Source: Rufibacter ruber
Lineage (GTDB): Bacteria > Bacteroidota > Bacteroidia > Cytophagales > Hymenobacteraceae
Reading direction: 5' to 3'
Assembly (NCBI RefSeq): GCF_001647275.1
Contig: NZ_LRMM01000003.1
Span: 1-64,000, forward strand
Length of the DNA: 64,000 nt
The notes below the pieces were generated by a model that was not told the origin of the DNA, made no database searches, and saw only the letters and a list, made by a program, of their open reading frames with translations. A program made the translations under genes and the position numbers. The first letter of the stretch is position 1. Each line of letters starts with the position of its first letter. This document shows positions 12,890 to 61,920 of the stretch, one piece after another.

Positions 12890-13700
12890 TGCTGCTGCCG
12901 TGGCAGTGTCTGGTAGCTGTTGCTTTCGCTGGAATGCGGAGTCTCCTGTTTCCTAGGCTGTGCCGTTGTTTTAGGAATGTGTAGTTTGCTGTTCCCCTGG
13001 CTTTGGCGGTTTACGCGGTGGTTTAGTAGCTGTACTGTTTCATCTTTTCCGGTAAGCGCTCACGGCCGCGGGGCCCCGTCCTGTCGGCTCGCACTGCTAT
13101 TAAAACTACGCCTTTGGCGTTGCCTTCGGCACCGTATTAACAGAGGCGCTCACCCCCAGGACTGGTTTAGGTTCCTCTCCTGATCAGCTTGTCTGGCTAT
13201 GTCTGCCTCTGCAGGTAACCGTTTCTGATCAGCTAGCCTGAGGCGAGCCCGTGCTGCGCACATCAGTCAGGGGCATGAGTGGTGGAAGTCTGTGGCAGAC
13301 TGTTAGTGGCTGCATCAGCTGCTGCTGCTGCAGGTCCTGCTGGCGCGAGTCTGCAGACTCGTGCCAGGTGATGACGGGTAGTCTCTGACTACCCTCGCTG
13401 CCTAGCAGCGACCATGCGCAGTGCTGGTTTATTCGTGCTGGAATTCCAGAGCGGAATAAATAACTCAGAACTCTTGACTCAGGACTCCTTCCGTTACTCC
13501 CCCTTTGAAGGGGGCGAAGGGGGATGTTTACACAGGAGGGCACGCATTCCCGCTTTGGTACGGTACGGACAGGTCTCGGCCTTTCCCTACGCATTTCTGA
13601 TACTCCCCTCCTGGGAGGGGCAGGGGTGGGTTCTACCCATTGCTGACCTGCTCACATTTCCATAAAAGTATAGAGACTCGCCCTATCCTAGGCCACTGGA
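12890..13700 (-). repeat. Composite hairpin element, copy A
   Basis: A non-coding element shared with copies B (22.4-23.7 kb) and C (56.5-57.6 kb) and inverted relative to them. In element order, reading the minus strand: a segment with CCCCTTCGCCCCCTT and a CTGAGT-rich stretch (13530-13450); mini-hairpins (13430-13270: CGAGTCTGCAGACTCG, GTAGTCTCTGACTAC, CGCTGCCTAGCAGCG); a conserved block (13260-13060) with the structured core; and a tail with GCATTCC-like units. Edges are approximate. Confidence 0.7.
13078..13162 (-). ncRNA. Candidate structured core, copy A (unproven RNA)
   Basis: Read on the minus strand: P1 GTCCTG/CAGGAC, P2 GGT-GA-GCGC with GTGC-GA-GCC, P3 CTGTTAA/TTAATAG (one G-U), then hairpins GCC-gaa-GGC and CGCC-aaa-GGCG. 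Copies B and C have different hairpin sequences in the same places, so pairing is kept while sequence is not. Transcription is not shown. Confidence 0.4.
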
Positions 13701-14482: not shown

Positions 14483-15304
14483 ATGAAAAAACACATCCTT
14501 TTTCTGTTTGCAGTTCTTGTGCTCCCGGCTTGGGCGTGGGCGCAGAAAACCGTTCCGGCATCTGAGGTTCTTGCCAGGATCAACCGCGGCGAGGCCGTAA
14601 GTTACAGCGGGGTCACCATCTCCGGAAAACTGGATCTGACCCAGCTGCAGAACAAGACCCTCAAACCCAGAAGGGACGTAGCGGCGGATCAGGACAGCAA
14701 GGAGTACGTGAGCACCGTCACCGCCCCATTGTCTTTTTCTAACTGCACATTTACGGGCGATGTACTGGCGTATTTCAACCCAGATAATGTAGACGGCGTT
14801 GATGACCTAAAAAAGCTGGTGAACCGAAACAGCAAAAACGAAGTCTACAACACCCACTTTGCCCAAGACGTCAAGTTTGAGAACTGCACGTTTGAGCAGC
14901 AAAGCGCCTTCAAGTATTCAGAGTTCAGGGGGGCGGCCTCTTTTGCCGGCAGCTCGTTTAAAGAAGAGGCAGTCTTCAAGTACAGCAAGTTCAGGGGCGG
15001 GGTCAGCTTCAGCCAGGCAAGGTTCAAAGAAGACGCCAATTTCAAATATGTGAAGTTCCCGGAAGGGGTAAACTTTAACGGGGCCACTTTTGAAGAAGAG
15101 GCCAACTTCAAATACGCCCACTTTACAGAAGGGGCAGATTTCAGAAAAGCAACGTTTGCAGGGCTGGCAAATTTCAAGTACGCCCACCTCTCAGACCCTA
15201 TGAAGGTAAGTGGCGCCCAGTTCACCGGAAGCCAGGACCTGAAGTACGCCAAGCTGAACCAGAAGTCGTTCAGTGCCGCCGCGCTGAAAGAAATGGCTAA
15301 GTAA
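14483..15304 (+). CDS. Secreted pentapeptide-repeat protein
   Basis: 273 residues. The start is ATG 14483, which gives a good signal peptide (MKKHILFLFAVLVLPAWAWA, cleaved near residue 20). Residues 143-236 hold about four 22-residue repeats of the form FKYSKFRGGVSFSQARFKED, each with Phe at positions 1, 6, 12 and 17, a variant of the pentapeptide right-handed beta-helix. An earlier NCTFTGDVLAYF segment belongs to the same fold. The near-perfect periodicity suggests recent internal duplication. The function is unknown. Confidence 0.85.
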   Translation: MKKHILFLFAVLVLPAWAWAQKTVPASEVLARINRGEAVSYSGVTISGKLDLTQLQNKTLKPRRDVAADQDSKEYVSTVTAPLSFSNCTFTGDVLAYFNPDNVDGVDDLKKLVNRNSKNEVYNTHFAQDVKFENCTFEQQSAFKYSEFRGAASFAGSSFKEEAVFKYSKFRGGVSFSQARFKEDANFKYVKFPEGVNFNGATFEEEANFKYAHFTEGADFRKATFAGLANFKYAHLSDPMKVSGAQFTGSQDLKYAKLNQKSFSAAALKEMAK

Positions 15305-22193: not shown

Positions 22194-22196
22194 TCT

Positions 22197-22236
22197 CTGT
22201 TTTATCACTAATTTCAGAAAAACAGGCCGGAAACGC
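22197..22236. repeat. CTGTTTT palindrome, copy 14 (degenerate)
   Basis: Right arm AACAGGCCGGAAACGC intact, left arm worn. Confidence 0.5.
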
Positions 22237-22419: not shown

Positions 22420-23735
22420 TCTAAATAAGCGCTGGCGCGGGCTTGCAGCTCGTGCCCTCGTGTGTCTCCAGATTGACTGGGAACTGTGATAAGATAGCAA
22501 TGTGCAGAACCCATCCCAACCTCTCTGAGGAGGGTAGGGCCGTTACCTTCTAAAAATAGAGCTGGTTCAAGTTTCCGAATTGGTCCTGAAATGAGCTTAA
22601 GTTTGCAACTCCAGTGAGCCGAGAGGCTCAAAACCCACAGTAATGGCAATGCCTTCCAGAAGGAAAACAAACTATTGGAATAGAACTTAACAGCAATGCT
22701 CCGAGGAGGGGAGTATCTGCAATGCGTTTTCAGCAGGTGTCAACATTCCCCTTCGCCCCCTTCAAAGGGGGAGTATTGGAGTGAGTCCTGAGTTCTGAGT
22801 CTTGAGTCCTTTCATTTTTTCCTTACGCAAATCAGCACGAATGAAGCAGCAATGCCTGGTCTCGCAGCCGTGCCGCGAGGGCAGCCAGAGACCGCCCGTC
22901 ATCAGTAGGCACGCGTCTGGAGACTCGCGCCAGCGCGTGAGTATCAGCTGGCGTTAGAAGGCACGGAAGTAACTTCCGCGCCATAGGGGGGCAGAAGCGG
23001 GAGCTATAGAGGGCAGAGGTCATGTGAGGCTGCCGCCTCATGGAAGCTGAAAGCTTCCGCCACCACTGGTCCAGGTTGGAAACCTGAACCAGAGAAAGCG
23101 GCAAACAAGCAGCAATAAGTAAGCAAAGAAACAACAATGAACAATCAACACTTCTACTGGTGGCACCTCTGATAATTAGCACTTCTGCCCCTGGCAGATG
23201 TGCGCAGCACGGGCTCGCCTCAGGCTAGCGGAATAGCAACAGTTGCCTGCAAACAGATTACAACTAGAAAAGCAGCTAAAGCAAAGGAACAGAAACCAGT
23301 CCTGGGGGTGAGCGCCTCTGTTAATACGGTGCCGCTTCAGCGGCAAGGCCGGAGGGCCTAATTTTAACAGCAGTGCGAACCGCCAGGACGGGGCCCCGCG
23401 GCCGTGAGCGCTTACCGGAAAAGATGAAACAATGCAGCTACTAAACCACCGCGTCAAACGCCAAAGCCAGGGGAAACAGCAGACCACGCATTGCAGCAAC
23501 GGCAACCAGCAGAACAAAGAATCCTTGAACCGCGCAGGGCAACAAACCACCGCCAAGGAAGCCGTAGACCTCGCATTTCAGTAGCAACACAGCAGGGTTC
23601 ATCAACCCACGCATTTCAGCGGCAGCAATGGCCAGTCACCAAGCCCAGGCAGCAACAGCAGCATGCAGCAAAGCCAAACGGCTGTCAACAGCACCCGGCA
23701 ATGCTACCCTCACCAACCCAACAATAAACAACCCT
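22420..23735 (+). repeat. Composite hairpin element, copy B
   Basis: The longest copy. In order: CCAACCTCTCTGAGGAGG segment (about 22500); CCCCTTCGCCCCCTTCAAA and GAGTCCTGAGTTCTGAG segment (22745-22815); mini-hairpins (22850-23095) including GGAAGTAACTTCC, GAGGCTGCCGCCTC, GGAAGCTGAAAGCTTCC and CAGGTTGGAAACCTG; conserved block (23160-23435) with the structured core; then a tail with degenerate CCACGCATTTCAGC units (23482, 23570, 23606). Copy C matches nearly throughout from about 22940. Confidence 0.75.
23299..23389 (+). ncRNA. Candidate structured core, copy B (unproven RNA)
   Basis: P1 GTCCTGG (23299-23305)/CCAGGAC (23383-23389); P2 GGT-GA-GCGC (23307-23315)/GTGC-GA-ACC (23373-23381), a helix with opposed GA pairs; P3 CTGTTAA (23318-23324)/TTAACAG (23364-23370); P4 GCCGC-ttca-GCGGC (23331-23344); P5 GGCC-ggag-GGCC (23347-23358). 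Confidence 0.45.
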
Positions 23736-43747: not shown

Positions 43748-43751
43748 CCCC

Positions 43752-43830
43752 AGTTTTAGGGGTGCCTTAATATAACGGGCTGAGATCATACCCATTGAAC
43801 CTGATACGGGTAATACCGGCGAAGGGAAAA
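43752..43830 (+). ncRNA. TPP (THI-box) riboswitch
   Basis: The conserved THI box is present: AGGGGTGCC near 43759, GGGCTGAGATCATACCC (43777 on), TTGAACCTGAT and ACCGGCGAAGGGAAA. It binds thiamine pyrophosphate and turns off the downstream gene. The only gene downstream on this strand is the TonB-dependent receptor starting at 44072. Confidence 0.95.
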
Positions 43831-43842
43831 ACAAGGGAATCA

Positions 43843-43885
43843 AAACAGAGTGGGAGAGCCGGCCCCTGGTGGCTCCTGTTTGTTT
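43843..43885 (+). terminator. Possible riboswitch expression platform
   Basis: AAACAG (43843-43848) pairs with CTGTTT (43876-43881) outside an inner stem GAGCC/GGCTC (43856-43860 with 43871-43875), followed by GTTTT. This could be a terminator formed when TPP is bound. About 190 nt of leader still separate it from the ATG. Confidence 0.45.
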
Positions 43886-44000: not shown

Positions 44001-44040
44001 CAGGTTCTTGCTATAAAAGTTTGCAGCGCACAAGCAAAAG
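44001..44040 (+). repeat. GGTTCTTTTGA dispersed repeat, degenerate copy
   Basis: CAGGTTCTTGC then GTTTGCAGCGCACAAG, in the leader of the TonB-receptor gene. Confidence 0.4.
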
Positions 44041-56519: not shown

Positions 56520-57600
56520 TGCTGGTAGTAGTCCTGAGTCAAGCATGTGATTTGGCTTCGGATGGAAACAACTTGCCATGCGTGTGACCCACCACTGCCC
56601 CTCCCAGGAGGGGGATTCTCTGGAATGCGTGGACCGGCAGGTGTCAACATCCCCCTCCGCCCCCTTCAATGGGGGAGTATCTGGTGACGTTAGAAGACAC
56701 GGAAGTAACTTCCGCAGCTTAGAGAGCAGAAGCTGTGTGAGGCTGTGCCACCGCTGTTTGGGATTTACACTCCCGAACTTACGTATCCCTCAGATTTGCA
56801 ATCTGCGCTACAGGAGCCAAGAGAGAAGGGGCCGGGGATTTCAAATCCCCTCAGTACCTGCTTCCGGATTGCAAATCCGGAAGAGCGGCCTCTTTTCTAG
56901 TAGAAATAACGGCCCTGCCCTTCAAAGGGGGAGTATCAGCTGGCGTTAGAAGGCACGGAAGTAACTTCCGCGCCATAGGAGGGCAGAAGTAATGTGAGGC
57001 TGCCGCCTCATGGAAGCTGGAAGCTTCCACCATTATAGGTCCAAGTTGGAAACTTGAACCAGAGAAAGCGGCAAACAAGCAGCAATAAATAAACAACACT
57101 TCTGCTAGTGGCACCTGGGTTAATTAGCACTTCTGCCCCTGGCTGATGTGCGCAGCACGGGCTCGTCACAGGCTAGCGGATCAGCAGTAGTTACCTACTG
57201 AAACAGAGAGCAAGTAAGGAAGTAGCAGGAGAGGAATCCAAACCAGTCCTGGGGGTGAGCGCCTCTGTTAATACGGTGCCGCTCCAGCGGCAAGGCCGGA
57301 GGGCCTAGTTTTAACAGCAGTGCTCACCGCCAGGACGGGCCCCGCGGCCGTGAGCGCTTACCGGAAGAGATGAAACAGTACAGTGAGTGAGGCACCGGAG
57401 CAAACGGGAGATCCAAGGAAACTACAGACTACGCATTCCTGCCGCAACACAGCTAAGGGGCCCGCAGCCCACGCAGTCCAGCAGCAACTGCAGCCGCAGC
57501 CTATGAGGGCACCGTATTCACGCCAACGTCAGGCAACAGCAGACTACGCATTGCCATCCGCAGACAGCCTCAGAAAAATGTCACCTAAACCGCCCCGGCA
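56520..57600 (+). repeat. Composite hairpin element, copy C
   Basis: Same order as copy B: CCCCTCCCAGGAGGGGGA and CCCCCTCCGCCCCCTTCAA segments (56595-56680); hairpins of a different set (AGATTTGCAATCT, GGGGATTTCAAATCCCC, TTCCGGATTGCAAATCCGG); then GGAAGTAACTTCC, GAGGCTGCCGCCTC, GGAAGCTGGAAGCTTCC and CAAGTTGGAAACTTG (56957-57055); conserved block 57120-57370; tail with CTACGCATT units (57426, 57467, 57541). Confidence 0.75.
57246..57336 (+). ncRNA. Candidate structured core, copy C (unproven RNA)
   Basis: P1 GTCCTGG/CCAGGAC; P2 GGTGAGCGC/GTGCTCACC fully paired (copies A and B have GA opposite GA here); P3 CTGTTAA/TTAACAG; P4 GCCGC-tcca-GCGGC; P5 GGCC-ggag-GGCC. Confidence 0.45.
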
Positions 57601-61644: not shown

Positions 61645-61920
61645 GCCGCAGTGGAACCCACTCCAATCCCTCTCAGGAGGGGAATCTCTGCCCGGGTAAA
61701 AAAAGCGATAAGCTCTACCGGATTTGCAATCTGGAAGTACATACCTCAGGGATTTGTAAACCCCGCACGTATTGATCAGCTCGCGCCGCGGAATACAAAT
61801 CCGCAGGTATCTAAATTCGGGATTGCAAATCCCGAATAGCGGAAGAGTATAGCAAGATCATCTGCAAAAGTAGAAGAGGGAAATCCCCTCCCGGGAGGGG
61901 TAGGTTTTACGCAGGAGGTT
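61645..61920 (+). repeat. Composite hairpin element, fragment D
   Basis: CCCTCTCAGGAGGGG at the left and CCCCTCCCGGGAGGGG at the right enclose mini-hairpins CCGGATTTGCAATCTGG, GCGGAATACAAATCCGC and TTCGGGATTGCAAATCCCG. The structured core is absent. Confidence 0.55.

Follow-up and report, generated by a model that had tools for sequence, protein, structure and literature searches.

The window analysed here, i.e., a stretch of 64,000 nucleotides, stems from the genome of Rufibacter ruber (5.5 Mb in 166 contigs; labelled G000 among the compared genomes). Rufibacter belongs to the family Hymenobacteraceae of the order Cytophagales. At positions 22420–23735 the window holds a composite repeat, copy B, for which a preliminary description had listed two further copies, A and C, and a fragment, D. 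Copy A (12961–13661, minus strand) and copy C (56601–57554) aligned piecewise with copy B at 73–90% identity, and a covariance model (R1) found 79 copies in the genome, which bears out A, B and C as repeats. Fragment D, described as a partial copy, gave no match to copy B; it lacks the core and contains only a GGATTTGCAAATCC-type REP hairpin and GGAGGGG-like boxes.

Searched against its own genome, copy B produced at least 55 match rows, counting the match to itself, and the longer matches spanned its positions 280–1090 at about 79–90% identity (40 of 263 candidates scored in both cases). A 27-base string from the core matched 74 times in this genome with up to three mismatches, while the reversed-pattern control gave no match. 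The copies had been described as encoding no conserved protein, and this held for the five ORFs of at least 100 amino acids that were tested over copies A, B and C. None of them had a Pfam match, we hence rejected a protein-coding reading, and a conserved protein in the same block, which was to count against a non-autonomous element, was not found among them. The AUG-like GAUGAAACA following the core was also rejected as a start, as judged by eye, because its frame stops within a few codons in most copies of this genome.

Modules and edges of the composite

We scored seven defined modules (Table 1) in those 66 of 76 own-genome copies that had enough flanking sequence; the copies were selected by their core, which is thus present in 66/66, and the BLAST cut-off may miss short boxes. 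All seven were found in 6 of the 66, and their order was identical in these six. The constant module order that had been claimed for all copies is therefore true of the complete ones, but complete copies are few. Since the upstream boxes and hairpins come and go in this way, the composite is a loose neighborhood that mixes separate repeat systems and no single mobile unit. Its steady part within the R. ruber genome is the 5′ domain with core and tail.

In genome G013, the shared unit has its start some 105 nt ahead of the core and tapers off between +180 and +220. Its left edge is step-like, with the proportion of other copies aligning rising from 14% at −120 to 95% at −80; in G006 the step is smaller, from about 50% to 97%. 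Only about one-fifth to one-third of the copies in G009 and G004 share the 5′ domain. The core is the sole part common to G013, G006, G009, G004 and the R. ruber genome. The search for copies in the genome and the family returned 79 in R. ruber and 14 to at least 150 in each of 16 Rufibacter-group genomes (R1; at least 150 in G009), but of a unit that in G013 is shorter than copy B.

A palindrome of about 38 bp, CGTTTTTGGCCTG-TTTTC-CAGGCCAAAAACG, lies at 22196–22235 of the window, at loci L143, L148 and L157 and at many gene ends; it sometimes brackets the repeats and may be a two-way terminator.

Table 1. Repeat features in the window; copy counts refer to the 66 scored copies of the R. ruber genome
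Feature	Position	Strand	Basis and remarks
Separate hairpin cassette, bounds GGGTAGGGCCGTTA ... TAGAACTTAACAG	22530..22700	+	Occurs without core in G010, 80–85% identity
GGAGGGG and CCCCTTCG/AAGGGGG boxes	22700..22782	+	GGAGGGG in 17, CCCCTTCG in 55 of 66 copies
REP block with GTCTGGAGACTCGCG	22838..22945	+	By eye same type as hairpins flanking the own Y1 gene (L348); one block in 43/66
REP-type mini-hairpins CGGAAGTAACTTCCG, GGAAGCTGAAAGCTTCC, AGGTTGGAAACCTGAACC	22950..23090	+	Read from sequence; related hairpins beside Y1 genes of other genomes; 33/66
5′ domain with hairpin GTGCGCAGCAC	23190..23293	+	Start is the left edge of the G013 shared unit; 64/66; absent from most G009/G004 copies
139-nt structured core: P1, tandem G-A pairs, P1b, P2 with variable apical hairpins, P3 (GGCC-NNNN-GGCC), conserved GUGAGCGC, then GAUGAAACA	23294..23432	+	Covariance models R1/R2; top genus-search match, 153 bits
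P1 5′ strand	23299..23309	+	Pairs with 23379–23389; two-sided changes at 8/11 pairs in A1, 10/11 in A2
P1b 5′ strand (GCGC)	23312..23315	+	Pairs with 23373–23376; adjoins tandem G-A pairs 23310–23311/23377–23378
P2 5′ strand	23318..23324	+	Pairs with 23364–23370; two-sided changes at all 8 modelled pairs in A2
P3 hairpin GGCC-CCGC-GGCC	23392..23403	+	Largely invariant, with compensatory changes at two pairs (5 and 2 of 63 copies)
Tail, degenerate units ending ACGCATT	23433..23700	+	Unit in 46/66
Core of copy A	13035..13167	-	Covariance model; whole copy 12961–13661
Core of copy C	57241..57378	+	Covariance model; whole copy 56601–57554
Fragment D	61650..61920	.	REP hairpin(s) and GGAGGGG-like boxes; without core

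A conserved fold in intergenic positions

Pairing within the core was analyzed in three alignments. A1 is a plain MAFFT alignment of 31 copies, chosen from 58 that were found by the string CGGCCGT[GA]AGCGC (one further match was dropped as no start was found), and the invariance of this string within A1 is hence given by the choice of sequences. A2 (63 copies from four genera) and A3 (a wider set) were aligned with the covariance models and lean towards the modelled pairs. In A2, 91% of 1438 cells were paired, with 376 two-sided changes compared with 130 in shuffled and 44–106 in slid controls. In A1, 89% of 713 cells were paired and two-sided changes numbered 143, compared with 54.6 in shuffled and 24–78 in slid controls; further pair types were no more numerous in A1 than in shuffles, 210 of 500 of which reached the count. 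In A2/A3, compensatory changes (C-G to G-C, G-C to A-U) also occurred in P1b, although this helix lies outside the alignment models, and the tandem G·A pair next to it was kept in 57 of 63 copies in A2 and less well in A3.

Among wobble pairs, G·U far outnumbered A·C (135 versus 3 in A2, 42 versus 4 in the MAFFT-aligned A1), we therefore take the plus strand as the folding strand. For nucleotides 1–119 of the window core, the minimum free energy fold coincided with the covariation fold (z −3.8; −2.5 on the minus strand). This strand bias fits a core that folds as RNA and equally one that folds as single-stranded DNA of the plus strand.

No Rfam family matched the core, either in the copy B region at E 5 or in 11 relatives at E ≤ 2. 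Two rows at E ≤ 2 (locus L409, among the 11 relatives) lay far below gathering score and outside the core. Away from the element, the Rfam scan of the window gave a TPP riboswitch at 43748–43844 (plus strand), above gathering score and upstream of an ORF at 44021. ORF-less relics of guide-RNA elements are known, and a structured non-coding RNA in many intergenic copies would suit a relic of the HEARO or omega RNA of IscB/TnpB transposons. HEARO, however, is among the Rfam families, and the copy B region remained without a match; the two rows found in relatives were outside the core, and no ORF over the window copies had a Pfam match. We hence regard a guide-RNA origin as very improbable.

A strict search of 204 family genomes gave matches in 67, from four of six genera. 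In ten chosen genomes, a deep search found 20–82 copies in six genomes of group g3, 22–67 in three of g4 and 25 in one of g2 (g1 comprises Rufibacter and Sabulibacter ruber; g3 is the Pontibacter group and includes Pontibacter ruber). Order-wide, 39 of 390 genomes matched; eleven of these lie outside the family, with 1–8 matches each, that in G344 being weak and partial. The exact 27-base pattern, searched over species genomes, occurred only in Rufibacter, Sabulibacter and Pontibacter among the matches listed (at least 80 loci). The core had no match in plasmids or phages and the 27-base pattern none in viral contigs, in collections that may omit records of this genome. Within 1.5 kb downstream of cinA, the core string was absent from G001, G002, G003, G008, G010, G011, G012 and G014, the rows for G004, G005, G006, G007, G009, G013 and G015 being unclear.

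The cores are intergenic, with no overlap with genes called by codon scoring. For 210 copies, nearly all from Rufibacter and Pontibacter, both neighboring genes were called: 78 lie between convergent genes and 64 and 47 between co-directional genes on the same and the opposite strand, respectively, which is no clear orientation bias (p 0.13). Divergent gaps are mainly avoided, holding 21 of the 210 copies compared with 53 of the 158 other gaps of at least 200 nt at the same loci (83 co-directional, 22 convergent), as neutral insertions would also do. In low-copy genomes, the core was on the genes' strand in 12 of 15 co-directional gaps (two-sided binomial about 0.035; longest-ORF table, with shared sites and two cores per gap counted once). 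Two low-copy loci of G255, L438 and L448, have cores between co-directional genes of operon-like clusters, and one G255 core lies between genes recognized by eye as SusC- and SusD-type-looking.

A riboswitch or cis-regulator would be expected to precede a constant class of gene. The low-copy loci listed share no common downstream gene; their neighbors vary and are constant only in the four matching genomes of genus g16, the core is therefore no ordinary riboswitch. Each of these four has one copy, in the same gap between the same genes and on their strand, and the gene downstream has GFO_IDH_MocA and GH109 domains. Between G366 and G479, the core is 94% identical, compared with 40–47% at fourfold sites of three neighboring genes and 36% in the stretch upstream of the core (gaps counted). 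The other pairs with G479 gave 83–86% for the core and 38–44% for fourfold sites. Past the core, where the sequence mostly belongs to the beginning of the next gene, identity in the G479 pairs was 71–82%. The closer pair G046–G359 showed no excess conservation, with the core at 76%, including a P3 insertion, and fourfold sites at 69–85%. Judged from these sequences, the g16 single copy looks to be under selection, a claim that rests on the pairs with G479.

Mini-hairpins, Y1 genes and possible movement of the core

A REP is marked by a GTAG- or CGTC-type tag beside a palindrome of 20–40 bp; tag families of this kind are reported in PMC3733652. We found Y1_Tnp matches in 15 of the 16 Rufibacter-group genomes (45 matches) and searched 20 Y1 loci for hairpins. 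Related hairpins lay on both sides of the gene in five, i.e., L348 of R. ruber, L356, L357, L360 and L361; among the rest, several had one-sided or unlike hairpins, L346 had a general palindrome only and six had none. The Y1 gene of R. ruber has GCGAGTCTGGAGACTCGC on one side and its complement on the other, by eye the type seen in copies A and B, and GGATTTGCAATCC-like hairpin types at L349, L350 and L360 also occur in copy C and fragment D; the likeness of Y1-flanking to window hairpins was judged by eye throughout. Since several RAYT (Y1) genes are bracketed by hairpins of these types, we take the mini-hairpins as REP palindromes of RAYT systems.

A Y1/REP-type transposase had been suggested as the mover of the composite. 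This fits the mini-hairpins but is unsupported for the conserved block: no core was found in 24 examined Y1 loci (23 distinct genes of the 45 matches), and G006 holds 27 cores, yet has no Y1_Tnp match at E 0.001. For the loci examined, we thus rejected an adjacent-gene Y1/RAYT enzyme as mover of the core and conclude from G006 that Y1 is not needed to maintain the family. RVT_1 was present in nine of the 16 genomes and absent from seven that hold 27–52 copies, although very divergent reverse transcriptases could escape such a search; RVT_1 is therefore not needed for maintenance either, and a group II intron or retron was rejected on the same count. An RVT_1 or Y1 enzyme may have acted in the past, and the conserved block may be a non-autonomous element moved by a protein encoded elsewhere.

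Consistent with movement, some sites are occupied in one species and empty in another. Nine G013 sites without a partner in G006 were examined, a sample that leans towards unshared sites. Five could be placed in G006 by both flanks and none of the five had a core there; of the remaining four, L046 and L047 retained a single or weakly matching flank in G006, and L145 and L156 none. The G006 flanks were too diverged for precise ends or a target-site duplication to be read.

Neighboring cores also showed a preferred arrangement. Among 14 pairs with gaps below 1.3 kb, 12 were head-to-head, i.e., with their 5′ ends facing, two were direct and none was tail-to-tail; of three wider pairs, two were tail-to-tail and one was direct. 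The head-to-head cores are 36–1276 bp apart (L087, L239, L281, L089, L248, L276, L323, L332, L333, L341, L342 and L417) and represent ten sites, since L087, L239 and L281 are one orthologous site that kept the pair in three species (G002, G009 and G010).

Such pairs would be expected if the core were the terminal inverted repeat of a MITE or transposon and most copies were solo ends, and the step-like 5′ edge of the G013 unit could mark such an end. The sharper edge, however, is on the 5′, i.e., inner, side, and the outer side fades. Moreover, no transposase was identified at 20 low-copy loci among the 25 ORF families listed; the families common to these loci reflect orthologous neighborhoods, plus others such as a five-member family in G434 and G255. 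We consider this explanation very improbable as well, if a shade less so than a guide-RNA relic.

The main rival to our preferred explanation is an outsized REPIN-like element, in which single-stranded DNA hairpins are moved by a Y1 transposase (RAYT or other HUH enzyme) encoded elsewhere, inverted core pairs represent the REPIN-like form and single cores are its relics. The head-to-head bias of close pairs, the occurrence of Y1_Tnp in all but one of the 16 genomes, the REP hairpins within the same composite, the strand-specific fold and the five G013 sites empty in G006 all speak for it. They are opposed by the lack of cores at the examined Y1 loci, by the 27 cores of G006 without a Y1 match, by sites long shared between species and by the conserved g16 single copy, which is unlike a parasite. 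On balance, we hold the REPIN-like element to be unlikely, though it deserves serious consideration.

In habit, the element resembles REP families; it differs from them in size, fold and conservation. Like REP/REPIN with RAYT, it is intergenic, occurs in tens to hundreds of copies that are similar within a genome, and has mini-hairpins of the kind found beside Y1 genes. The core, in contrast, spans 139 nt and folds strand-specifically into several helices with conserved internal loops; it was not found beside the Y1 genes examined and is a conserved single copy in another genus.

Old shared sites and seemingly homogenized sequences

We compared sites among 252 copies under 27 genome labels, i.e., 260 copies less eight within-genome duplicates; the labels G207 and Pontibacter ruber denote one genome, so that the 252 may include two duplicates. 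Both flanking genes were shared across genomes for 74 copy pairs in the same orientation and eight inverted, at 38 distinct sites; the 74 contain no G207–Pontibacter ruber pair, and site pairs are not independent. Seven of the eight inverted pairs come from one site that carries an inverted core pair.

Copies at the same site were hardly more alike than copies at different sites. Ranked against non-orthologous comparisons, the identity of orthologous copies fell at a median percentile of 0.61, with 6 of 74 at 0.95 or above. Within G000, G006 and G013, mean core identity was 0.87–0.89, compared with 0.70–0.76 between these three; in G004, with mixed subfamilies, the within-genome mean was 0.78. 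The peptidyl-prolyl isomerase site deviates from this pattern, as the copies that G000, G001 and G004 carry there were mutually top-ranked among those compared. In 11 of 16 genomes, a core lies upstream of an M16-peptidase gene, always in the same orientation, 419–618 nt before the query start and of differing subfamilies. A comparison of G003 with G002 at this site aligned the start and 3′ half of the core along with part of the tail, but neither the apical segment, which differs, nor the sequence immediately upstream of the core.

Because sites are shared and yet sharing a site adds so little to the likeness of two copies, the sequences seem to derive from ancient sites with gain and loss that were homogenized in place, most simply by gene conversion. 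The comparison was one of species, not strains, and repeated insertion in fixed orientation could mimic such homogenization. Preferred sites would then have been refilled independently, with no gene conversion, and at two of five examined G013 sites the element does sit between two copies of the common palindrome CGTTTTTGGCCTG...CAGGCCAAAAACG. This palindrome could hardly set an orientation because it is nearly symmetric. Orientation relative to genes, moreover, varies between sites but is kept within them (74 versus 8), and the G003–G002 comparison shows a subfamily swap inside a partly alignable element. Independent refilling therefore appears to us a poor explanation, albeit not as poor as that of transposon ends.

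The explanation we prefer, tentatively and with slightly less than even confidence, takes the conserved block for one copy of a Cytophagales element with RNA-like features that functions in transcripts, was amplified in Hymenobacteraceae and was homogenized by gene conversion. The core would act as a putative RNA inside the transcripts of neighboring genes, at intercistronic positions or in the 3′ UTR, where its structure might serve RNA processing or stability. Following amplification within Hymenobacteraceae, short-tract ectopic gene conversion would have homogenized its copies in place. The mini-hairpins would be REP palindromes of separate RAYT systems, collecting in the same tolerant gaps as the core, and no present-day RVT_1 reverse transcriptase would be required to keep the element.

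With greater reserve, we make a more far-reaching proposal: some Cytophagales would retain one selected copy of a functional bacterial RNA, which in Rufibacter and Pontibacter would have given rise to a SINE-like interspersed family numbering 14 to at least 150 in a genome, with loci inherited over times as long as the age of a genus and sequences evolving in concert across the whole chromosome. Eukaryotic SINEs derive from 7SL or tRNA. The likeness is one of analogy only, in that a low-copy conserved small RNA coexists with an interspersed multi-copy form in one lineage; the present element differs in that seven of 16 multi-copy genomes have no RVT_1 and in that its positions are old and its sequences homogenized. 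Intercistronic BIME and ERIC-type elements are non-coding, fold when transcribed and lie between the genes of operons. The core would share these traits but is conserved across families of the order with deep covariation; this likeness was drawn from description, with sequence comparison in the form of the Rfam scans. For REPs, gene conversion was reportedly raised as a question by Higgins et al. in 1988, as their title has it. Searches of the open PMC literature, which took in passages of PMC8049555 and PMC3116915, turned up no account of the element.

No Rfam family matched the element, yet many sequenced genomes each hold it at tens of loci, which raises the question of the role of a multi-copy structured RNA in so many intergenic gaps. 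Species with a single copy offer a clean genetic test system. Should in-place homogenization hold true, the family would offer a natural setting in which to measure ectopic gene conversion between dispersed short loci, about 80 of them on one chromosome.

Smaller repeats accompany the composite. The hairpin cassette at its upstream end has inverted ends, GGGTAGGGCCGTTAAGTTCTA and TAGAACTTAACGGCCCTACCC, and is found core-less at several places in G010 (80–85%). Short degenerate repeats, GAGTCCTGAGTTCTGAGTCTTGAGTCC, adjoin the boxes at 22783–22815 of the window and in copies A and C, and occur also at L034 and L035. At locus L132 of the R. ruber genome (G000:C115; core at 14698–14835 of the contig, minus strand), the tail contains near-perfect tandem units of about 80 nt starting with ATGAAACA; tail units are degenerate in the other copies.
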